DNA from: Tautonia plasticadhaerens
GTDB lineage: Bacteria > Planctomycetota > Planctomycetia > Isosphaerales > Isosphaeraceae
Reading direction: 5' to 3'
Assembly (NCBI RefSeq): GCF_007752535.1
Contig: NZ_CP036426.1
Location: forward strand, 372,001 to 436,000
DNA: 64,000 nucleotides
Of this stretch, positions 14,601 to 40,053 are shown one piece after another; the stretch's first letter is position 1; each line of letters begins with the position of its first letter. Under the pieces are notes generated by a model. That model worked only from the letters and a program-made list of their open reading frames with translations, was not told the DNA's origin and ran no database searches. A program made the translations under genes and the position numbers.

Positions 14601-14813
14601 GGGCATCGATCGCCGGGAATCGCCCCGAGGGGCGAAGGCGTCCCCGTGCCCGTCCCCGTCGCAGTCCGTCCCGGTGGGCCCTTGGGCCCGGGTGCCGGAG
14701 CCGTTAGGCTCGGGGTCGCATCGCTCGGATCGCCGGGGCGGATCTCCATTCAATTCATGAGTGGGAGGAGACGTCACGGTCTGTCCCCTCGGAACCCGAC
14801 AGGAGCACGCCCC

Positions 14814-16178
14814 ATGATCGACGCGACGACTCCGCCGAACCGGGCCGATCGGCCCTCGCGACGGCGATTCATCCGGACCGTGGCCGGCTCGGCCGCCGGC
14901 CTGATCGCCGCCCCGGCGATTGTCCGGGGCCGGAACCTCAACGAGAAGCTCGACATCGCCGTCATCGCCGCCGGCGGCCGGGGCGGCCACAACCTCCAGC
15001 AGGTCTCCTCCGAAAACATCGTCGCGCTTTGCGACGTTTACGAGCCCGCCGTCGCCCGAGCCGCCCGGCTGCACCCGCACGCCAAGCGGTTCTCCGACTT
15101 CCGCAGGCTCTACGACGAGGCGGGCGGCTTCGACGCCGTCGTCGTCAGCACCCCCGAGCACACCCACGCCGCCGCCGCCCTGCCCGCGCTGGCGTTGGGC
15201 AAGCATGTCTATCTGGAGAAGCCCCTCTCCTACAACGTCCACGAGGCCCGCGTCCTCCGGGAGGCCGCGGCGAAGGCCGGCGTCGCCACGCAGATGGGCA
15301 CGCAGATCCACGCCAGCGAGAACTATCGCCGCGTGGTGGAGCTGATCCGGTCCGGCGTCATCGGCCCGGTGCGCGAGGCACATGTCTGGGTCTCCCGGGC
15401 CTGGGGCCGGCAGTCCCCCGAGGACGCGGAGAAGAATCGGGACATCGTCTCGGTGCTGGAGCGGCCGAGCGATTCGTCGCCGATCCCCGAGGGGCTGAAT
15501 TGGGATCTCTGGGTCGGCCCCGCGCCGGCTCGCCCCTTCCACGAGGTCTACTGGCCGGGGCCGAAGTGGTACCGATGGTGGGACTTCGGCAACGGCACCA
15601 TGAGCGACCTGGGCAGCCACTGGAACGACCTCCCCTTCTGGGCGCTGGACCTGAAGGCCCCGCTGACGATCGAGGCATTCGGCCCGCCCCCGCACCCCGA
15701 GATCGCGCCGGCGTCGATGAAGGCCGTTTATGAGTACGGCCCGCGCGGCGACCAGCCGCCGGTGACCCTCTCCTGGTACCAGGGCACGGCTAGGCCCGAC
15801 CTCTGGGACGAGGGCAAGATCCCGCAGTGGGAGAACGGCCACCTGTTCGTCGGCGAGAAGGGGATGCTGCTGTCCGACTACGGCAAGCACGTCCTGCTCC
15901 CCGAGGAGGAGTTCGAGGGGGTGACCGGCCCCGAGCCCTTCCTCACCCGCCCCAGCAGCCACCACGCCGAGTGGATCGACGCCTGCAAGACCGGGTCGCC
16001 GACCGGCTCGAACTTCGAATACGCCGGCTGGCTGACCGAGGCGAACCACCTGGGGAATGTCGCCTACCGGGTCGGCCGGAAGATCGAGTGGGATGCCGAG
16101 GGGATGCGCGTGACCAACGCCCCCGAGGCCGAACCGTTCATCCGCCGCGAGTACCGAGACGGCTGGTCGCTCGGCTGA
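14814..16178 (+). CDS. Tat-exported Gfo/Idh/MocA family oxidoreductase
   Basis: The 454-residue protein starts with a twin-arginine signal (SRRRFI at 15-20, then a hydrophobic stretch ending near APAIVRG at 33-39). A Rossmann NAD(P)-binding half follows with a [10 protein letters not shown] loop (about 50-59), the STPEHTH strand and the signature EKP at 135-137. The C-terminal half is the Gfo/Idh/MocA substrate domain. Members oxidise or reduce sugars and related alcohols with NAD(P); the Tat signal implies folding with cofactor before export. An AGGAG motif lies 9 nt before the ATG. The next gene, also Tat-exported, follows after a 339-nt gap. The substrate is unknown. Confidence 0.92.
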
Positions 16179-23432: not shown

Positions 23433-23780
23433 ATGTCTTTCTTCGACGGCCGGTCGGCGATCGGCCGGGAGCGTCAGGCGGGTCGCACCCCGGGCGGGGA
23501 CGCGGGCCTCGGCCCGGGATACGATGGTAGGCCGCATGACCCCCGGCCGGTCGACGCCGGCGAGGTCCCCGGCCCGATTGTCCGCCGGGGGGACCTTGCC
23601 CGGCTCCCCGAGGACGACCGAGAGGTGCTGGTCATGCGCCACCTGGAGCTGCTGAGGTTCGGGAAGCTCGCCGTCGTGCCGGGCGTCACCAGGCCCGATG
23701 AGCAGGCCCGCCCCCCCCGGGCCGTCGATCGGGCCCGCGGGGCCTCGGCTCGGGCCGGCGCCGGGGGGCCGTCGCGATGA
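23433..23780 (+). pseudogene. Remnant of an ECF-type sigma factor (region 4)
   Basis: The frame ending at 23780 contains, from 23592, the peptide DLARLPEDDREVLVMRHLE, which is the start of sigma region 4 in planctomycete ECF factors. Beyond it the helix-turn-helix is eroded (FGKLAVVPGVTRPDEQAR, where a FAEIAAxLG-type helix is expected), and region 2 upstream is missing. The stop overlaps the kinase ATG as ATGA, exactly the arrangement of intact sigma-kinase pairs in Isosphaeraceae. A TACGAT element at 23520-23525 may be a surviving promoter -10. I judge it a decayed gene; a short functional peptide cannot be excluded. Confidence 0.6.
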
Positions 23781-26700
23781 CCCCGCACGACCCCTCGACC
23801 CAGGTCGACGACCGGGCCCTGGCCGGTCGCGTCGCCGAGCTGGCCGGCCGCATCGAGGCGGGAGAGCCGGTCGACCTGGACGCCCTGCGACGGGACGAAC
23901 CCGAGGTCGCCGACCGGGTGCTCGGGCTGCTGCCCGTGCTGGGCCTGCTGGCCCGGCTCGGCCTCCCCTCCGGGCCCGGCGGCCCGACCCCGATCGGCGC
24001 CCTGCCTCCGGACGAGTTCGGCGAGGGGATCGGCCGGCTCGGCGAGTTCGTCCTCCTCCGCCAGATCGCCCGGGGGGGGATGGGGGTGGTCTTCGAGGCC
24101 CGCCAGCTGGGCATCGGCCGCCGGGTGGCCCTCAAGATCCTGCCGGCGGTGTCCGCCCTGGATCCCCTGCAGCGTCGTCGGTTCCAGGTCGAGGCCCGGG
24201 CGGCCGGCGCCCTGAACCACGACCACATCGTGCCGGTCTACTTCGTCGGCTCCGAGGAGGGCGTGCATTATTATGCGATGCAGCTGGTCGACGGCCGGAG
24301 CTTGGCCCAGGTCCTCGCCGACCTCCGCCGGGGCGGGGACGCGGGCGAGGAGCCCGCACCGACCCGGGCCGACGGCGACATCGACCTCGCCCTCGAGGGC
24401 GCCCTCGACCTCGAGCTCGACCTCGACGGGCTGGGCCCTCCCGACATCGGGCCCGACCCGACGTCCCTCGGCCCCTCGCACGCCGCCTTCGTGGCCCGTC
24501 TCGGCCTCCAGGCGGCCGAGGCCCTGGCGCACGCCCACGAGCAGGGGGTGATCCACCGGGACGTCAAGCCGGGCAACCTGCTGCTCGACCACGACGGCCG
24601 GCTCTGGATCGCCGACTTCGGCCTGGCCCGACTCCAAGGGGACGCCGGCCTGACGGCCTCCGGCGTCCTCGTCGGCACCTTCCGCTACATGAGCCCCGAG
24701 CAGGCGGCCTCCACCCGGGGTGTGCCGGTCGACCACCGGACCGACATCTACAGCCTCGGCGCCACCCTGTACGAGCTGCTCACCCTCCGGCCCGCCTTCG
24801 ACGACGCCGACCGGCGCGTCGTCCTCCGCCGGATCATCGAGGACCGGCCGACGCCGATCCGGCAGCTCAACCCGACCGTGCCGGCCGACCTGGAGACCGT
24901 CGTCGCGAAGGCGATGGCCAAGGATCCGGACGACCGCTATGCCACGGCCGCCGAGCTGGCCGACGACCTGTCGCGGTTCCTCGACGGCCGGAACGTCCTG
25001 GCCCGTCGCCCCTCCCCGCTGGACCGGGCGGCACGCTGGGCCTACCGCCGTCGCCTCGCGGTGGCCTCGGCCCTGCTGATGCTGGGCCTGGTGACGGCCG
25101 CCCTGGGCGTGGCCGTCGTCCTGATCGCCCGGGCCCAGGCCCGCACCGCCGACGCCCTGGCCGATGCCAAGGCCAGCCGAGACGCCGCGATCGCCGAGCG
25201 GAACCGGGCCGACGACGCGGCCGGGCACGCCCGGTCGAGCGAGCGGTTCGCCCGGGAGCTGCTCTACGTCTCCAACCTGAAGCTCGCCGCCGAGGCCCTG
25301 CTCGACCGCGACCCGCTGCTGATGAAGGAGTACCTCGACCGCCACGTCCCCGAGGCCGGCGAGCCCGACCTGCGCGACTTCGCCTGGTGGTTCCTCAAGA
25401 CGCAGGGGGAGATGCCCTTCGACGAGCTGGCCGGCCCCGGCCCCCCGCTCTACTTCATCGCCTTCTCCCCCGACGGCCGGCTCATGGCCACCTGCGGGCA
25501 GGACGCCGTGATCCGGCTCTCTGAGCGGCCCGGCGACCGTCTCGTCTCCGAGATCGAGACCGGCCAGGGGGAGGTCAACGGCCTCGCCTTCAGCCCCGAC
25601 GGCCGCCGCCTCGCCTCCGCCGGCGACGACGGCACCGTCCGGCTCTGGGACCTGGAGACGAGCCGGGAGATCTGGCGGGCCCAGGCCATCGAGGACGGCC
25701 TGGCCTTCCAGGTCGCCTTCGCGAGGGGCGGCGAGGTGCTGGCCTCGTGCGGCCAGGAGTCGGTCATCCGCCTCTGGGACGCCGAAACGGGCGCCCCGGT
25801 CGGCGAGCTCCGGGGGCCGGAGGCCGACGGGCCGACCCTCGCGGTCGAGGCGATCGCCGTCACGCCCGACGGCCTCCACCTCGCCGCCGCAGGCCCCGGG
25901 GATGTGGCCCGGGTCTGGGACCTGGAGTCCCGGTCGGTGGCCCTGGAGCGGGGAGGCGCCGGCCGGCCGACCTGGGTCGCCTTCTCCCCCGACGGCGATC
26001 GGGTCGCCGTGGGCCGAAAGAAGGGCGTCCTCGAGGTCGTCGACCGGCGCTCGGGCGCGACGGTCCTCGTCGAGAAGCTCCGGGACGACGTCCAGGCGCT
26101 GGCGATGCTCCGGGGGGGCTCCGTCCTCGCCGCCTCCGACCGGGGCGGGATGATCCACCTGTTCCCGCTGCCGGCGCCCGACGGGCCGGGCCCCGGGGCG
26201 ATCCGCCCCCCGTGGCTGGCCCACGGCGACCGCCTCTACGCCCTGGCCGCCGACCCCGACGGCGACGCCCTGGTCTCCGCCGGCGCCGACGGCCGGGCCC
26301 GACGATGGCACCCCCTGGAGCCCGATCGGAGCCGCCGGTGGGCGATCGACCGGGGCGAGTGCGGCGGATTCGCCTTCTCCCCGGGGGGGCGGTCCCTCTG
26401 GGTCCTCCGGGGATCGGGGGTCGTCCCGATCGGGCTCGCGCCGGATGGGGAGGCGCGGCCGGTCGAGCTGGGCGATGCGTCCTTCCTCGGCCTCCACGCC
26501 GACCGGGGGTGTCGCCGCATCGCCGCCTGCGGGAGGCGAGCCGGGGGGGACGGGCCCCCGCTCGTCGTGGTCTGGGACCGCACGACCGGCTCCTTCCCCT
26601 TCCGCTGGGAACCCCGAGGGGGGATCGTGAGCATCCGCTCGGTCGCCATCTCGCCCGACGGCCGCCGCCTGGCGGCCTACGGCAGCCGGGACCGCGCCGT

Positions 26701-27295
26701 CCCGGTCGGCAGGCGAGTCTCGCTCTCCCTCTTCGACCTCGAGGCCGGGGGACCTCCCCTCGACCTGGGGCTGCCCGGGGCCGACTCGGCCGGCACGATG
26801 AGCATGGTCGACTTCGCGCCGGACGGCCGCCTGCTGGCCGCCTCCAGCGGGCACGACATCCTGCTCGTCGACCCGGTGGCCGGCCGGCCGCTCCGGCCGC
26901 TCTCCGGGCACTCGGGCACCGTCGGCGCCCTGGCCTTCAGCCCCGACGGCGCGTTGCTCGCCTCGGCGGGGGACGACCGCCGCCTGGTGCTCTGGGAACT
27001 GGCCTCGAACCGTCCGGTCTTCTCGACACTCGCCCTGGATTCGCAGGCGTTGGCCCTGGCCTTCAGCCCCGACGGCCGCCTGCTCGCCTCCGTCGGCCGG
27101 GACGGGCTGGTGCTGCTCTGGCACGTGCCGACCCGGCAACTGCTGATGGAAATCCCCGCGACGAACCCCCATGGCGGCAACCCCGGCGAGGCCTACGACG
27201 CGATCGCCTTCGGCCCCGACGGCCGCCGGCTGGCCGTGCGCGTCCCGGAGGACGTCCTGATCCTCGATTCCTCGACCGCCTCCTCGGCCCCTTGA
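23777..27295 (+). CDS. Serine/threonine protein kinase with C-terminal WD40 repeats
   Basis: The 1172-residue protein has a helical N-terminal region (1-85), a Hanks-type kinase domain (about 89-405), one membrane helix (428-451), a coiled linker (455-500) and a long WD40 region to the end. Kinase motifs are complete: [10 protein letters not shown] loop, K120 (VALK), HRDVKPGN with D262, D280-F-G, and SPEQA. An acidic insert of about 45 residues (185-230) sits in the hinge region. WD repeats show SFSPDGRxLAS-type and VRLWDLE-type strands, with the clearest copies near 585-650 and 1040-1130. The kinase faces the cytoplasm and the propeller probably the other side. The ATG overlaps the stop of the sigma remnant. 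Confidence 0.93.
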
Positions 27296-27391: not shown

Positions 27392-28822
27392 ATGCCGTCG
27401 ATCGACTCGAAGACCCTGGACGTCCTCTGGCAAGACCCCGACGCCCGCGAGACGGCCCTCCGCCGGGTCGTCGAGGGGCGCCTGGCCGAGGACCCGCCGC
27501 CGAGGTCCGACGACCACGTCGTCGCCACCTACTTCTTCGCCTTCCGGACCGAGTCGCTCGACGACGCCGTGCGGGAGATCGCCTACCACGCCACCAGCGG
27601 CATCAAGGACCCGCCCCCCGGCTCCCTGCTGGCCGAGTGCACCGCCACCGCCGCCGGGGTCGACCCGTTCGACTCGACCGGGCGGATCGGCCTGCTCCAC
27701 ATCGCCTTCCCCCTGAAGATGATGCTCCAGGGGGACGGCCACCTCACCTCGGTCGACCTGCTGCACACCACCGCCGCGGCCATCATCTTCGACGTCTACG
27801 AGAACCAGGACGCCCGGCTCGTCTCGCTCCAGATCCCCGATAAGGTCCTGGCCACCTTCCCCGGCCCGGCCCACGGGCCCTTCGGCCTCCGCAAGCTCAC
27901 CGGGTTCGACGACGGCCGCCCCGCCTTCGGCACCATCCTCAAGCCGACCGCCGGCGTCACCCCGGACGACGTCGACCGGATCGTCGGCGAGGTCGCCGGC
28001 TGCGACCTGCTCATGTTCATCAAGGAGGACGAGGACCTCTATCCCAACCTGCCCTATTCCCCCGTCGCCGACCGCATGACGCGGGCGATGGCGGCGATCG
28101 AGCGGATCAGGGACGAGCGGGGCGGGCTGGGGCTGGTCTACGCGCCCCACGTCACCGGGGCGCCGAACGAGATCCTGGAGACGGTGCTCGCCGTGCTGGA
28201 GGCCGGGGCCAACGGCGTCATGTTCAGCGAGACCTTCGCCGGGGGCGCCGTGCGGATGGTCCGGGAGGCGACCAGGCACCTGTCGCACCCGCCGGCCATC
28301 TACGGCCACAACGCCGGGATCGGCACCCGGACCCGGGCCATCTGGCGAGAGGTGATCGACCTGCTCGCCCGGCTCGACGGCATCGACTTCCGACAGACCG
28401 CACCGGTCAAGCCCGGGACCCCCTTCCTCCGCCCCTACGGGGCCGAGTGGCTCGCCTCCGAGGTCGCCCTCTCCCGTCCCCTGCCCGGCGGGCTGAACCC
28501 GACGATGATCGCCCGGGCCGGCGCCCTGGACCAGGGCAACGTCATCCTCAACCTCCAGGACGCCGAGGCGCGGGGCCTGACCGACCACATCCTCTTCCTG
28601 GCCGGCTCGGCGATCAACTCCATCAAGGACGACTCCGGCACGTACGAGCCCCGCCTCGGCGCCGAGGCGATGCGGGAGGCGCTGGAGGTCCACCGCTCCG
28701 GCTCCATGGCCGGCGTGCCGATGGAGAAGCACCTCGACGAGCTGGTCGCCCTGGCCGACCGCCGGAAGCTCGCCGCCCTGCGCCGGGCCCTATCCCAGCG
28801 CTACCCCGACCGCGCCGGCTGA
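27392..28822 (+). CDS. RuBisCO-like protein (form IV large-subunit family)
   Basis: The 476-residue protein has the RuBisCO N-terminal domain (about 40-165) and TIM barrel (175-450). The metal-site motif is intact: K211-E-D213-E214 corresponds to the carbamylated Lys, Asp and Glu of RuBisCO. K184 (in ILKP) matches the catalytic Lys175, H306 matches His294 and K340 may match loop-6 Lys334. The ligands that bind the substrate phosphates and transition state are changed: Lys177 becomes T186 and Arg295 becomes N307. This is the pattern of RuBisCO-like proteins that use an enolate but do not fix CO2, such as methionine-salvage enolases or isoapionate-pathway decarboxylases. Which reaction applies is not known. 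It follows the WD40 kinase by 96 nt and is convergent with the PepSY operon. Confidence 0.9.
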   Translation: MPSIDSKTLDVLWQDPDARETALRRVVEGRLAEDPPPRSDDHVVATYFFAFRTESLDDAVREIAYHATSGIKDPPPGSLLAECTATAAGVDPFDSTGRIGLLHIAFPLKMMLQGDGHLTSVDLLHTTAAAIIFDVYENQDARLVSLQIPDKVLATFPGPAHGPFGLRKLTGFDDGRPAFGTILKPTAGVTPDDVDRIVGEVAGCDLLMFIKEDEDLYPNLPYSPVADRMTRAMAAIERIRDERGGLGLVYAPHVTGAPNEILETVLAVLEAGANGVMFSETFAGGAVRMVREATRHLSHPPAIYGHNAGIGTRTRAIWREVIDLLARLDGIDFRQTAPVKPGTPFLRPYGAEWLASEVALSRPLPGGLNPTMIARAGALDQGNVILNLQDAEARGLTDHILFLAGSAINSIKDDSGTYEPRLGAEAMREALEVHRSGSMAGVPMEKHLDELVALADRRKLAALRRALSQRYPDRAG

Positions 28823-34550: not shown

Positions 34551-35705
34551 ATGCCCCCGATCCGGATGAACCGACGCCACTTCCTGGGATGCTCCGCCGC
34601 CGCCGGCTGGGCGATCTCGCAGGGGAGGGAGGTCGAGGGGGCGATGAACTTGCCCCCGGTGCGGCTCGGGCTGATCGGCCTGGGCAACCGGGGGACGGCG
34701 CTGCTGAGGGCGGCGCTGGACCTCCCCGAGGCGGAGATCGTCGCCGTCGCCGACGTCGAGGAGCGGCACCGACGCCGGGCCTGCGGGATCGCCGAGAAGG
34801 CCCGGGGGAGGCGGCCCGACGAGTACGCCGACCCGTCCGACCTGCTGGTGAGGGAGGACGTCGAGGCGGTGCTCGTCGCCCTGCCCAACGTGCATCACCT
34901 CTCCTGGAATTGCCTCGCCCTGGCCTCCGGCAAGCACCTGTATGCCGAGAAGCCCCTTTGCCTGACCCTGGAGGAGTGCGACCTGCTGATCGCCGAGGCC
35001 GATCGACGCCCCGATCAGGTCGTCCACGTCGGATTTCAGCGCCGGTCGAACCCCCGGTTCCGAGAAGGGGTCGAACTGATCCGGAGCGGCGAGCTCGGCT
35101 CGATCCTCGAGGCCCGATCCTCCTGGACCAGCAGCAACGGCCCGGTCGACGGCCACCTCGGCTGGCTGGGCAAGCGGGAGCAATCCGGCGACTGGATGAT
35201 GGAACAAGGGGTGCACGTCTGGGACTGGCTGCACTGGATCGCCGGGGGGCCCCCGGCCCGGGCCTGCGGCTACGGGCGGCGCGACGTCTTCGCCGACCTC
35301 CGGCCCGGCCGGGACGTGACCGACCACTACACCGTCACCCTGGAGTGGCCGGACGGCTTCCACGCCTCGTTCGTGCATAGCTGGGTGGATCCGGCGGACG
35401 ACTCCTTCACCGGGATCTCCCAGCGGGTGGTCGGCACCGCCGGGGGCTTCGACTTCGGCACCGGCACCGCCACCTTCCGGGACCGCTCCCTCCCCCGCCG
35501 GGCCCTGCACCCCGGCAACCTGCCCGACACCCGCTTCGCCCTCTCCTCCTTCCTGTTCGCCATCCGGTCCCCCGAGCCCATCGCCCCGCCGGTCACCCTG
35601 GCCGAGGCCCGGGACGCGACGCTGACCGCCCTGCTGGTGCGGAAGGCGGTCGACGAGCGTCGGGTGGTGGGCCTCGACGAGGTCGGATCCGGCCCGGCCG
35701 CCTGA
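34551..35705 (+). CDS. Tat-exported Gfo/Idh/MocA family oxidoreductase
   Basis: The 384-residue protein has a twin-arginine motif at its start (NRRHFLG, 7-13), then a Rossmann domain beginning RLGLIGLGNRG, and the family EKP motif at 133-135. The C-terminal substrate-binding half contains the HVWDWLHWIAGG segment with the conserved His. It is an NAD(P)-dependent sugar or polyol oxidoreductase by family; the substrate is unknown. It is shorter than the other two Gfo/Idh/MocA proteins of the window and not closely similar to them, so this is not a recent duplication. Confidence 0.92.
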   Translation: MPPIRMNRRHFLGCSAAAGWAISQGREVEGAMNLPPVRLGLIGLGNRGTALLRAALDLPEAEIVAVADVEERHRRRACGIAEKARGRRPDEYADPSDLLVREDVEAVLVALPNVHHLSWNCLALASGKHLYAEKPLCLTLEECDLLIAEADRRPDQVVHVGFQRRSNPRFREGVELIRSGELGSILEARSSWTSSNGPVDGHLGWLGKREQSGDWMMEQGVHVWDWLHWIAGGPPARACGYGRRDVFADLRPGRDVTDHYTVTLEWPDGFHASFVHSWVDPADDSFTGISQRVVGTAGGFDFGTGTATFRDRSLPRRALHPGNLPDTRFALSSFLFAIRSPEPIAPPVTLAEARDATLTALLVRKAVDERRVVGLDEVGSGPAA

Positions 35706-36184
35706 ACCCGGCCCCGACACCGATCGGGAGTCTCGCCGCGCTCACCCGGCCGATCGCGTCGCCGGGGAGGTTGGCCGTCGTCCCGGGGACTCGGAGACGA
35801 GGCCCCGGCCCCCCATCATGGCGACGCCCGCGACCCGGGCGGGTGATCCCGTCGATCGGCCGGCCCGGCACCGGGGGATGCCCCGCCCGATGGGCCCGAG
35901 GCCGGTCCCGGATCGGCCGACTCGGGCCCCGAACCCGCCCGGTTCCGCCCCCTCGCCCCTCGCCGTCCCGTTCGGGTAGGATGGGCCGTTGGCAGTATGT
36001 CGGGGTCCCGATCCGCCCGCCTGCCCGGCCCGCCGCCGCAAGGCGAGGGGTCCGCCCGCGATCGCGGGAATATCCGCATCGCAGGCCGACTCGCTCCCCG
36101 GCCTGGCCGGCGGCCCCTGGCCGGCCGGTCCCGGATCGGCCCCGCGACCGAACCCATTCCCGCCCTGACCGGAGCGAACTCCCG
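35706..36184. other. Long leader region between two oxidoreductase genes
   Basis: The 479 nt show no gene. TAGGAT at 35977-35982 resembles a -10 element and would leave a 5' untranslated region of about 200 nt for the gene at 36185. No riboswitch or clear hairpin could be identified. Confidence 0.45.
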
Positions 36185-37702
36185 ATGACCGACAAGAAGA
36201 CGCCGGTGAACCGCCGCAACTTCCTCCAGACCTCCGGCCTGGCCGCGGGCGCCGCCGCGACCGCGGGCGTCGCCTACCCGCACCCGGCGATCGGCAAGGT
36301 CCAGGGCGCCAACGAGCGCCTGAACTTCGCCATCATCGGGCCCGGCGGCCGCGCCCAGGGCCACATCAACCACCTGCTGGAGCTCGGCGACGAGGAGAAC
36401 GTCAAGATCGCCGCCGTCTGCGACGTCTGGGACGGCAACAAGGAGGTCGGCCGCGGCCTCTACCCCTCGGCCGAGAAGTGCGGCCTGAACGTCGACGACA
36501 AGAAGAACGTCACCAAGGACTATCGCACCCTGCTGGACCGCGACGACATCGACGCGGTGCTGGTCGCCACCCCCGACCACTGGCACGCCAAGCAGTGCAT
36601 CGACTTCATGGAGGCGGGCAAGGACGTCTACTGCGAGAAGCCGATGACCCACACGATCGACGAGGCTCGTCGTGTGGCCGAGACCGTGAAGAAGACCGGC
36701 CAGGTCTTCACCGTCGGCGTGCAGTCGACGGCGCATCCGCAGTGGCGGATGGCCAACGAGCGGATCACCAAGGGCCAGATCGGCAAGGTCATGCAGGCCC
36801 AGACCCAGTACTACCGCAACAGCGCCATGGGCCAGTGGCGGTACTACCCGCTCACCGAGGACATGAACCCCAAGACGGTCGACTGGAAGATGTTCCTCGG
36901 CACCGAGTTCGGCCTGGCCGAGGACCAGCCGTTCAACCGGGCCCGCTACGCCCAGTGGCGCTGCTACTGGGACTTCGGCGGCGGCATGTACACCGACCTG
37001 TTCGTCCACCAGCTGACCCACATGCTGCTGGCCCTGGGCCTGCGGTTCCCGCGCCGGGTGGTCGGCGGCGGCGGCCTGTACCTGGAGTATGACGGCCGTG
37101 ACGTGCCGGACGTCGCCACCGTGGTGGCCGACTACGACGAGGGGGCCCAGGTGATCGTCACGGCCACCATGGCCAATGACACGCCCATCGACGAGGTGAT
37201 CCGGGGCCACACCGGCACGATCAAGTTCACCTACGAGGGGTTCGACATCACCCCGCAGGTCCTCCGGGGCGCCCCCGCCCCGCCGAGCCGCGAGAGCGCC
37301 GGCCAGGACGGAGTGGAGCGCGTGAACGCCGGCTTCGACCCCCGGGGCGACGCCGACACCCGGGCCCTCTGGAAGCACTTCATCGGCTGCGTCCGGAGCC
37401 GCAACCAGGAGACCCTCTGCCCGGCCGACCTCGGCTACGCCGCCATCGCCACGGTGAACCTGGGCGTCGACAGCTACCGCCAGGGCAAGGCCTACTTCTT
37501 CGACAAGGAGAACGGCCAGGCCTCCGAGGCCGACGACTCCTGGGCCAAGAAGTGGGAGAAGGTCTCCCACAACCGCGGCCTGCCCCAGCACGTCATGGGC
37601 TGGGACGCCGACGTGAAGGAAGGCTCCGTCCTCTTCCCCCCCGACTACCAGAAGCTCGAAGGCGACTGGGTCGACGGCCAGGACCCCGCCAAGCGGGCCT
37701 GA
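36185..37702 (+). CDS. Tat-exported Gfo/Idh/MocA family oxidoreductase
   Basis: From the ATG at 36185 the protein is 505 residues, with Tat signal NRRNFLQTS (9-17), a Rossmann domain (FAIIGPGGRAQGH, 48-60) and the EKP motif at 151-153. The block WDFGGGMYTDLFVHQLTH holds the conserved Asp and His of the substrate domain. The C-terminal tail (SVLFPPDYQKLEGDW) is common in planctomycete members. Codon usage is strongly biased to C-ending codons and rather even (AAG, AAC, GAC), which suggests high expression. The physiological substrate is unknown. Confidence 0.93.
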   Translation: MTDKKTPVNRRNFLQTSGLAAGAAATAGVAYPHPAIGKVQGANERLNFAIIGPGGRAQGHINHLLELGDEENVKIAAVCDVWDGNKEVGRGLYPSAEKCGLNVDDKKNVTKDYRTLLDRDDIDAVLVATPDHWHAKQCIDFMEAGKDVYCEKPMTHTIDEARRVAETVKKTGQVFTVGVQSTAHPQWRMANERITKGQIGKVMQAQTQYYRNSAMGQWRYYPLTEDMNPKTVDWKMFLGTEFGLAEDQPFNRARYAQWRCYWDFGGGMYTDLFVHQLTHMLLALGLRFPRRVVGGGGLYLEYDGRDVPDVATVVADYDEGAQVIVTATMANDTPIDEVIRGHTGTIKFTYEGFDITPQVLRGAPAPPSRESAGQDGVERVNAGFDPRGDADTRALWKHFIGCVRSRNQETLCPADLGYAAIATVNLGVDSYRQGKAYFFDKENGQASEADDSWAKKWEKVSHNRGLPQHVMGWDADVKEGSVLFPPDYQKLEGDWVDGQDPAKRA

Positions 37703-37798
37703 TCTCGGTTCGCTAACCGCCAACTCCCGGATGGCTGGGGTCATCTCGACCCCAGCCACCCCGCCGGGCCATCCGATAACCGCCAGGGGAGCACTCCC

Positions 37799-38173
37799 AT
37801 GATCGGCGGGACTGACACAATCATCCCCACCGACGCCGGCCCGGCCAGAATGCGCCTCGCCCTCAAGGTCATCCTCGCCCACTGGCCCGACGCCGTCGCC
37901 GAGGACGCCAACACCGGCGAGCCGTTCTCCCTCCGTCCCGAGTTGCCTGCGTCTCTGCCCGATGAACTCTTCGTCTACCAGGACAGTCCCACCGCCTGTT
38001 CCTGGGAGCAGCTCGGCCCCGATCCTTCCCTCGCTAATACGATGCTCCACTTGATCCGCTCGGACGACAATTTCACCGTCGTCGACGACAATCCCGCCCC
38101 GGACATCCTTCTCTTGGCCCACAAGATTGATGCTTGCATCCGGCCCATCGTACACTACACTGGACGACGTTGA
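37799..38173 (+). CDS. Hypothetical protein, 124 residues
   Basis: The small acidic protein starts at an ATG with AGGGGAG about 9 nt upstream and follows the oxidoreductase gene by 96 nt. It has no signal peptide or membrane segment. An N-terminal helix (ARMRLALKVILAHWPDAVAEDA) and an acidic C-terminal part (LIRSDDNFTVVDDN) are visible. I do not recognise the family. Codon bias weakens toward the 3' end, next to the AT-rich island. Confidence 0.65.
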   Translation: MIGGTDTIIPTDAGPARMRLALKVILAHWPDAVAEDANTGEPFSLRPELPASLPDELFVYQDSPTACSWEQLGPDPSLANTMLHLIRSDDNFTVVDDNPAPDILLLAHKIDACIRPIVHYTGRR

Positions 38174-38242
38174 GCTCGCCAGGATCAAGCCGGCAAGCCG
38201 GGCTGGAGTCGGCACGACCAGCCTCCCCGCCTGCACCTAATA

Positions 38243-38926
38243 ATGTATGTCGATCTGCGGATTCAGCACCATATGATTATCTTGAATCGACAATATTGGA
38301 TTCCGGTAATAATCTCCGGCAATCAAGACAATTTCCTGTTAATAATGACGAGCAAAGGATTGTGCTTGCCAATCTGGAAAGACGACAGCTTAGCCTATCA
38401 AATTGAAAAGAAACTCAAGGGGGTCGCCTGTTTCAGATTGATTAATTCGGAAGATTTATTGATTAAATTAATGGACGATTCATCCTGTTGCATTTTGTTC
38501 ATCGATGGCGCAATAAGCGATTTTGAATTTCGATGGGGAATGATGTCATCGATACGCAAGGACACACTTGAAATTCCAAGCATATTCAACATTAGAGACA
38601 ATTTAGCCACATGGCCATTTATTCTAAGCATGCTAAAGAAGGATTTAAAGCGTGGTTTCAACGAAACGAAATTCGATGATTGGGAAGCTCAGTTAAACCA
38701 TCAGTGGGCCACGTACAAATTTAGAAGATACAGAGATATAAAACAATTCGCGATCAAACAGGAACAGTTAGCGACAAGCACAAAAGCATTGACAGAATCA
38801 CAGCACCAAAAAGCTTGGGATGGTTCCATGGCCTGTGCCGACTGCGGCTATAAATGGAAGTCGCGAAGGGAGACGCCACCCGCGCGGTGCCCGTCCTGTA
38901 ATTCCAAGAATGTTCATGCAGGGTAA
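38243..38926 (+). CDS. Unrecognised protein with C-terminal zinc ribbon (AT-rich gene)
   Basis: The 227-residue product uses AT-rich codons (ATT, AAA, TTA) unlike its neighbours. The C-terminus carries two Cys pairs, C198-x2-C201 and C216-x2-C219 (ACADCGYKW, ARCPSCNSKN), a zinc-ribbon-like arrangement often used for nucleic-acid or protein binding. The middle holds alternating hydrophobic strands (CCILFIDGAI) and a helical, basic region (LKKDLKRG). Other in-frame ATGs at 38273 and 38345 could be the start; no good ribosome-binding site decides it. The function is unknown, and a defence or mobile-element cargo role is possible but unsupported. Confidence 0.6.
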   Translation: MYVDLRIQHHMIILNRQYWIPVIISGNQDNFLLIMTSKGLCLPIWKDDSLAYQIEKKLKGVACFRLINSEDLLIKLMDDSSCCILFIDGAISDFEFRWGMMSSIRKDTLEIPSIFNIRDNLATWPFILSMLKKDLKRGFNETKFDDWEAQLNHQWATYKFRRYRDIKQFAIKQEQLATSTKALTESQHQKAWDGSMACADCGYKWKSRRETPPARCPSCNSKNVHAG

Positions 38927-39058
38927 TGCATTCCCGGGCGGCGAAGCAGCAAGAAATCGGAATAAATACCTCCCATATCGTTTGAACTGAGCTTTGCCGC
39001 GGCTTCTTGGCGCTCGGCGACCCGGACAACAAGGATGTCCGGGTCACCCGTAAGCCTG

Positions 39059-39580
39059 TCATTCGCCTTGGGCTAACTCCTCAAGCTTGCCAGTGTGTTC
39101 TCTAAGAAATTCAAGAGTATGGCCATTAGAACGATAAATCCGTTCTTGCTGATCTCCATCAGGTTCGGTGACGGAGCAAATGCTTGTGATCTGACCAGAA
39201 GATGCCTCGCGAATACGCTTATGTGCAGAGCCAACAGGACGCCGTAAAGACCTGCCAGATTCAAGGTTTAGCTCTCGAAGAAGGGTAGACTGATCGATCA
39301 CACCATCTGAGCGAACGAGTGCCAGAAGAAACTTGGCAGTCAGCGAACTCATATCATCGAAAAAGACACCGCCATCAACTTCCGGGCTATTGTTAGAAAC
39401 GGCAGACTCTTCAGATTCCAGATTGTCCGTCCTGGCGTCATGTTGCTCGCCATTCATTAATGGCGTGTTGAGGTCAGCCGGGGCAGGACGGTAATTGTCC
39501 CCAAATACTCCGAGTCTTACCAATTCAGCGTACTCGGTTGTGCTGCAACTAATCCTCTGATTATTGTGAATAACTTCCAC
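39059..39580 (-). CDS. Unrecognised protein, possible winged-helix region
   Basis: The 173-residue product lies in the AT-rich island on the minus strand, convergent with the zinc-ribbon gene. The N-terminal half is polar and probably disordered (residues 30-70). Residues about 76-130 (SSLTAKFLLALVRSDGVIDQSTLLREL, then RRPVGSAHKRIREA) could form a winged-helix or similar three-helix domain. No enzyme motif is seen. It could be a regulator, but that is a guess from shape only. Confidence 0.55.
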   Translation of the reverse strand: MEVIHNNQRISCSTTEYAELVRLGVFGDNYRPAPADLNTPLMNGEQHDARTDNLESEESAVSNNSPEVDGGVFFDDMSSLTAKFLLALVRSDGVIDQSTLLRELNLESGRSLRRPVGSAHKRIREASSGQITSICSVTEPDGDQQERIYRSNGHTLEFLREHTGKLEELAQGE

Positions 39581-39760
39581 CGCGGAGTCTCCCTGTTGAA
39601 TCAGAATTGGTTCGGCTGTACTAATTGTAGCGGTTGCAGGGCGAAGGGCAATGGCAAATCAGAAGAATTATCATGATTTTCCCGGCGGGCGGGTGGCACT
39701 GGTGGCCCCTCCACTCCGCCACAGCCACCTGTCGCCGCATAGGGCGACGGAGGAAATCCT

Positions 39761-39997
39761 ATGAAAACCATCGGTGTCGACCAGACGTCCCTCGACGATT
39801 GCGTCCGCGACGCCCAGCAGGAGCGGATCATCCTCACCCGGGACGGGGTCCCTGTCGCCCCGATCGTCGGGCTGGAAGGACTCGACGCGGAGCAGCTCGA
39901 ACTCGGGATCAGCGATGCGTTCTGGAAACTCATCGCCGAGCGCCGCGGCCAGCGGACGATGACTTGGGATGAACTCGAACGGGCGTTGCCGGGGTAA
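39761..39997 (+). CDS. Phd/YefM-like antitoxin, apparently orphan
   Basis: The 78-residue protein has the layout of prevent-host-death-type antitoxins: an N-terminal DNA-binding-like part (MKTIGVDQTSLDDCVRDAQQERIILTRDGVPVAPIVGL) with the typical ILTRDGxPVAxIV strand-turn-strand, then an acidic C-terminal toxin-neutralising tail ending WDELERALPG. A strong GGAGGAAA lies just before the ATG. No toxin gene (PIN, RelE, Doc) follows; the next gene is convergent, 56 nt away. It sits right beside the AT-rich island, so it may be a leftover of a toxin-antitoxin pair or act alone. Confidence 0.7.
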   Translation: MKTIGVDQTSLDDCVRDAQQERIILTRDGVPVAPIVGLEGLDAEQLELGISDAFWKLIAERRGQRTMTWDELERALPG

Positions 39998-40053
39998 TGT
40001 CCGGACGACGGTCGGGCCCGCGGGGATCGACGGGTCGCGTGGGCCTTGCCTGA

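Follow-up and report, generated by a model that had tools for sequence, protein, structure and literature searches.

What else the RuBisCO scaffold does is a long-open question, and few RuBisCO-like proteins (RLPs) have an assigned reaction. MtnW, a form IV RLP, is the 2,3-diketo-5-methylthiopentyl-1-phosphate enolase. OiaX is a 3-oxo-isoapionate-4-phosphate decarboxylase and, together with a wider group of RLPs associated with a four-carbon acid sugar kinase (PDB 3nwr included), is tied to sugar-acid catabolism; the decarboxylation of 3-oxo-isoapionate-4-phosphate by such RLPs (PMC6302742) sets the precedent for this reaction in the superfamily. In addition, the RLP of R. rubrum isomerises 5-methylthioribulose-1-phosphate (PMC6302742, PMC10672854), and for yet another RLP, encoded near a sugar epimerase gene, a function as an epimerase was proposed in 2020 (PMC7325909).

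Here we describe an RLP of Tautonia plasticadhaerens, encoded in a stretch of 64,000 nucleotides that was analysed as a whole (hereafter, the window). It shares with MtnW the fold, the metal-site residues, and the expected enolase-type chemistry, but it scores far under the MtnW cut-offs, belongs to a separate clade, has both phosphate-site regions altered, and its partners, where present, are sugar-acid genes. The OiaX group is likewise tied to sugar-acid catabolism; however, it keeps the HR motif and, within the loop-6 region, a Lys, both missing from the lineage described here, and its kinase is a four-carbon acid sugar kinase, whereas that of our lineage belongs to the PfkB family. With the R. 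rubrum-type RLP, compared only through the reaction described in those sources, the likeness would lie in enediolate chemistry on a ketose skeleton.

The RuBisCO-like protein and its active site

The gene is located on the forward strand at positions 27392–28822 of the window (ATG at 27392, stop at 28822) and encodes a protein of 476 aa (P0001). The GC content at its three codon positions (0.71/0.47/0.98) is the pattern of a real gene in this high-GC genome. The protein matched the catalytic domain of the RuBisCO large chain (PF00016) with 51 bits against a Pfam cut-off of 30.1, and 3nwr was its best PDB chain by sequence (E 3.1e-18). Its AlphaFold2 model (pLDDT 92.5, pTM 0.91) had as top fold match in the PDB another RLP, 4nas (Z 36.8, rmsd 2.5, 388 residues aligned); other MtnW-type RLPs were also among the best matches, and form III and form I RuBisCOs gave Z values of 32–35. 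The Pfam match above the cut-off and the predicted RuBisCO fold thus confirm its membership of the superfamily. The part alignable with RuBisCO structures is preceded by an N-terminal extension of 35 residues (27392–27496), modelled as two helices (residues 6–12 and 16–33), with the PDB alignments starting at model residues 34–42; several positions of this extension are invariant or nearly so among 50 orthologues.

Active-site residues were mapped from a 39-row alignment of the superfamily, and their conservation was taken from the 50 orthologues, of 74% mean identity; the reference numbers are those which we take to be of the spinach enzyme, guided by the form I row of Cupriavidus. An RLP with K184, K211, D213, E214, and H306 kept, and with the equivalents of Lys177 and Arg295 changed to Thr and Asn, had been reported here by the initial annotation, and both the ORF and the alignment bore this out. 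The residue K184 corresponds to Lys175 and is followed by T186 at the position of Lys177 (K184-P185-T186, 27941–27949); K211, D213, and E214 correspond to the metal ligands Lys201, Asp203, and Glu204 (K211-E212-D213-E214, 28022–28033, a KEDE motif as against KDDE); and H306 corresponds to His294, next to N307 in the place of Arg295 (28307–28312). Among the 50 orthologues, K184, K211, E212, D213, E214, H306, and N307 are all invariant, as are R334-Q335-T336, P348, and G350 (50/50); further invariants are R375 and D380-Q381-G382-N383.

Carboxylating RuBisCOs of forms I to III need Lys177, Arg295, His327, Lys334, Asn123, and Glu60. The Tautonia protein has the metal ligands, the Lys175 equivalent, and the His294 equivalent of such enzymes, but, in addition to T186 and N307, it shows Q335 at the position of His327, no counterpart of Lys334, a residue other than Asn at position 123, and H66 instead of Glu60. 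The two changes in the middle of this series fall in a rebuilt loop-6 region (residues 334–350, 28391–28441), where RQT replaces the surroundings of His327. Trp66 and Gly381 are replaced as well, by K72 and A378, and the Gly403-Gly404 phosphate motif is replaced by G405-S406 within A404-G405-S406-A407 (28601–28612).

This pattern is not a matter of chance, because K184, K211, E212, D213, E214, H306, and N307 are invariant across the 50 orthologues, and the active site looks like a conserved one that was re-fitted to another substrate rather than a decayed one. As read from the alignment, the protein keeps the general base of RuBisCO, its acidic metal ligands, and the lysine that is carbamylated there, and has lost the residues that bind the phosphates of RuBP and those needed for carboxylation. 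Enolate chemistry without CO2 fixation, as originally proposed, is consequently supported by the sequence, with more of the carboxylation and bisphosphate-binding residues lost than had been claimed. Furthermore, the changes in the two phosphate-binding regions suggest that the substrate may carry no phosphate.

Placement in the superfamily and distribution of the lineage

The protein reached the cut-off of no curated NCBIfam model for RuBisCO or RLPs, with scores of 30–79 bits against cut-offs of 409–700: 78.9 vs 497 for form III, 68.7 vs 700 for OiaX, 49.4 vs 409 and 30.1 vs 513.6 for MtnW, and 39.3 vs 489 for PRK13475. In a 48-row tree (LG+C20), built leaving out form II, the R. rubrum 5-methylthioribulose-1-phosphate isomerase RLP, and named form IV subclades such as GOS and AMC, the protein and its orthologues, hereafter clade N, formed a single lineage (support 100/100) whose stem is 1.6 changes per site long. 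Reference sequences behaved as expected, with the form I, MtnW, and OiaX rows each clustering together, and forms I and III, the OiaX-like RLPs, and MtnW each made a group of their own, with clade N outside all of them. The protein was excluded from the clade of forms I and III at 100/99 in this tree without form II rows, so the placement within forms I–III that the initial annotation had regarded as incompatible with its reading was not seen; it also lay outside the OiaX-like clade (100/100). The MtnW and OiaX clades that had been suggested as its possible home did not accommodate it either, as it scored far under their cut-offs and branched outside both groups; OiaC, mentioned along with them, is to our knowledge not a RuBisCO homologue.

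Topology tests rejected the grouping of clade N with form III alone (AU p 0.009) and, marginally, a sister relation with MtnW (p 0.04), and did not reject clade N as sister to forms I and III (AU p 0.42) or to the OiaX-like RLPs (p 0.11). One sequence, from locus L019, is connected to clade N through a long branch; the tree without it gave the same picture, with a backbone support of 38/3. Clade N is therefore separate from the labelled groups, and neither the tree nor these tests single out one of them as its sister. Judged by its sequence, the protein is a member of a deep-branching RuBisCO-like lineage without a name, which fits no named clade tested and is almost certainly separate and non-carboxylating. 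No description of this lineage was found in the open full-text literature searched, which does not by itself prove its absence in print.

A full-length orthologue was detected in 15 of the 45 genomes of the family (63–100% identity), with a fragment in one more. Among 372 Planctomycetota genomes, only two carry it, one of them being the genome of the window. A collection of species-level genomes yielded 52 clade N loci from about nine named phyla; the phyla are taken from the record labels, some of them doubtful, and many of the records are metagenome-assembled genomes. As an example, the sequence of locus L027, labelled Anaerolineae, groups with those of Isosphaeraceae. In the same family, a very divergent RuBisCO-family protein was found at 250–1596 (−) of locus L153 (G006:C323), which also attaches to clade N through a long branch; it adjoins an ORF with, judged by eye, an alpha/beta-hydrolase-like sequence.

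Gene neighbourhoods of the orthologues and of the Tautonia gene

Neighbouring families of the 52 clade N loci were kept only if their homology was recognisable; a first clustering had given many antisense or shadow ORFs. In 28 of these loci, across nine named phyla, the gene that follows on the same strand within 400 bp encodes one family of Gfo/Idh/MocA dehydrogenases (GFO). Other recurrent neighbours were a xylose-isomerase-like barrel (SPI, 25 loci), a relative of ribulose-phosphate-3-epimerase (RPE, 19), an alpha/beta hydrolase (ABH, 18), a divergent uronate isomerase (UXA, 18), a PfkB kinase (PFKB, 13), and a protein similar to mannitol-1-phosphate dehydrogenase (MTD, 5). At least one of GFO, UXA, RPE, PFKB, and MTD was present in 36 of the 52 loci and none of the five in the other 16, six of which have a short or missing flank on at least one side. 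The RLP orthologues are thus recurrently encoded with a catabolic gene set of sugar-acid type. The four-carbon acid sugar kinase that accompanies OiaX-like RLPs was found in none of the 52 loci nor in the window, and was found in L104, L132, L138, and L139.

In loci L047 and L065, the stop codon of UXA overlaps the start of the RLP gene (ATGA). The modelled fold of UXA (pLDDT 77) is that of uronate isomerases of the BH0493/UxaC family (Z 27–28, with 27.6 for 3hk5 and 26.7 for 1j5s; 32.0 for 4i6v) at around 16–21% identity, the first match outside the uronate-isomerase-like rows having a Z of 14.2. It carries an invariant HTH motif, has no Pfam match, and lies far under the cut-off of glucuronate isomerase (NF002794, 20.8 vs 387 bits). 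For GFO, a sequence search of the PDB gave no match at E 1e-20. Close orthologues of GFO are single-copy in 8 of the 45 family genomes, and those of UXA (72–73% identity) are present in 2 of them, so that the repeated adjacency with the RLP is not background. Strict co-occurrence of UXA and RLP was not found, as UXA is present in 4 of the 372 Planctomycetota genomes, none of them with the RLP.

The composition of the cassette varies even at one site. Next to polX, locus L025 carries the full cassette, L064 the RLP and RPE, and L028, L046, and L069 the RLP alone, a graded loss. Lone RLPs nest among cassette-bearing relatives in the tree (SH-aLRT 97), which, with these stages of loss, indicates that the modules can live apart. 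The mirror image of the RLP-only genomes was observed in the Isosphaeraceae genus g13, where GFO, with or without SPI, adjoins polX without the RLP (GFO-SPI in L140, 7965–11782, and L141, 8211–12008).

The Tautonia genome (G000) has no orthologue of GFO, UXA, RPE, or PFKB: the best matches to UXA, RPE, and PFKB show around 29–33% identity, and no GFO match appeared at E 1e-60. A search covering the window and two other stretches did not find SPI or ABH. In the window, the sole Gfo/Idh/MocA proteins are distant ones (14646–16178 and 34551–35705), and no RLP operon proper to Tautonia was found, with no close RPE, PFKB, GFO, or UXA in the genome. The pathway had initially been left open; this still describes the Tautonia locus, which lacks the partners searched for, but not those of its kin, which carry the recurrent sugar-acid cassette. 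Although alone, the RLP is under purifying selection in Tautonia (dN/dS of 0.03–0.20 among four genomes of the genus), and it is retained alone in many Isosphaeraceae. The gene for a WD40-repeat Ser/Thr kinase (Pfam) upstream of it (23777–27295, +), noted earlier as its context, turned out to be uninformative and was judged not to be part of the system, as conservation is lacking even in Tautonia sociabilis, whose locus (L024) aligns at the RLP stretch and at separate further blocks, not at the kinase.

A second RLP of Tautonia, of OiaX-like type and the only other RuBisCO-family gene of the genome, is located at G000:C1:3247804-3248616 (−) (L001, L104), adjoining a Gfo/Idh/MocA-like ORF and a four-carbon acid sugar kinase that is 48% identical to the R. 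etli enzyme. In addition, the GC content drops to 0.603 at positions 36001–40000 of the window, compared with 0.70–0.75 elsewhere in it, a possible insertion.

Candidate reaction and alternative readings

Our preferred reading, to which we assign a probability of around 0.5, is that the protein would be a Mg2+-dependent enolising decarboxylase of sugar-acid (uronate-type) catabolism that yields a pentulose. The substrate class is taken from the loci of the relatives, because these carry the recurrent sugar-acid cassette, and a role in sugar-acid catabolism is probable in the genomes with a cassette; that decarboxylation is the actual step is put forward more tentatively. From residues and neighbours we infer the Mg2+ binding, the substrate, the decarboxylation, and the order of steps. 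A uronate or aldonate would be converted into a keto acid by UXA, GFO, or MTD. The RLP, with Mg2+, would then perform enediolate chemistry on the keto sugar acid, perhaps one without phosphate, and, once UXA and/or the dehydrogenase have acted, would turn a keto-hexonate into a pentulose and CO2. Downstream, the PfkB kinase would produce pentulose-5-phosphate, which RPE would convert into xylulose-5-phosphate, an intermediate of the pentose phosphate pathway. The lone RLP of Tautonia presumably acts on this substrate or one like it, which other enzymes would supply. If the decarboxylase reading is true, soil and lake bacteria would have an added sugar-acid route, and the RuBisCO fold would work without its bisphosphate anchors.

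The most serious competitor is an isomerase or epimerase that would shift a carbonyl or invert a centre on a keto sugar acid or a ketose (phosphate) without release of CO2, which we consider possible, if clearly less probable. Enediolate chemistry at the retained metal site suits isomerisation equally well, so that on chemistry alone this role would be just as likely, and both the R. rubrum RLP and the epimerase function proposed for another RLP (PMC6302742, PMC10672854, PMC7325909) speak in its favour; what tips the balance is that the cassette already has proteins of epimerase or isomerase type in SPI, RPE, and UXA, and that no other obvious decarboxylase exists among the conserved partners, save a URO-D-family protein in 4 of the 52 loci. 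A divergent MtnW or OiaX, serving methionine salvage or apiose/tetronate degradation, would explain why the fold is nearest to MtnW structures such as 4nas and why both NCBIfam models gave weak matches; however, the size of the shortfall in those scores, the branching outside both clades, the lack of the four-carbon acid sugar kinase in clade N loci and window, and the existence in Tautonia of another RLP, OiaX-like and next to that kinase, make it very unlikely.

That the protein could be a carboxylating RuBisCO with unusual ligands is hardly credible: the complete metal site and the unrejected sister relation to forms I and III would allow it, but the six residues listed above are all changed, grouping with form III alone was rejected, and the only other RuBisCO-family gene of the genome is OiaX-like. 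A different question is whether the lone Tautonia protein has departed from its cassette-borne orthologues towards another role, such as detoxification or repair of keto acids, or regulation. The missing partners and its retention alone, under purifying selection, in many Isosphaeraceae would agree with such a change, but it is around 70% identical to the cassette orthologues and shares all their active-site invariants, which speaks for an unchanged chemistry, and we hold this departure to be unlikely.

Within the decarboxylase reading, a narrower version, which we regard as rather improbable, would have UXA supply an unphosphorylated keto-uronate, on which the RLP, having shed both phosphate anchors, would walk the carbonyl to the beta position, as in the R. 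rubrum RLP, and release CO2, as in OiaX. If true, hexuronate would become pentulose and CO2 in two redox-neutral steps, with the kinase and the epimerase leading to xylulose-5-phosphate and the dehydrogenase providing side entries, a new route of uronate catabolism on a RuBisCO scaffold. As another substrate, 2-carboxyarabinitol/hamamelonate was considered, which fits reverse-RuBisCO chemistry and RPE, though no better than a uronate, and was dropped because the uronate-isomerase relative recurs in the cassette; nothing on bacterial hamamelose catabolism was found in the open literature search. As clade N is conserved in about nine phyla, outside the labelled clades tested, with a recurrent set of partners, the question of the RuBisCO scaffold becomes testable here with a short list of substrates.

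Finally, some less frequent neighbours were observed. The URO-D-family protein, of MtaA/CmuA-like type, is located near the RLP in L045 (3091–4116), L067, L070, and L075, and L051 has a DeoC/LacD-family aldolase close to its RLP gene. In L152 (6469–10296), from a planctomycete that lacks the RLP, DeoR-like, PfkB-like, UXA, and aldolase-like ORFs follow one another in a row, as judged by eye from the ORF starts, and possibly make up a different route by which this substrate is used; in such a route, an aldol step may take the place of the RLP, whose own substrate could then be phosphorylated.
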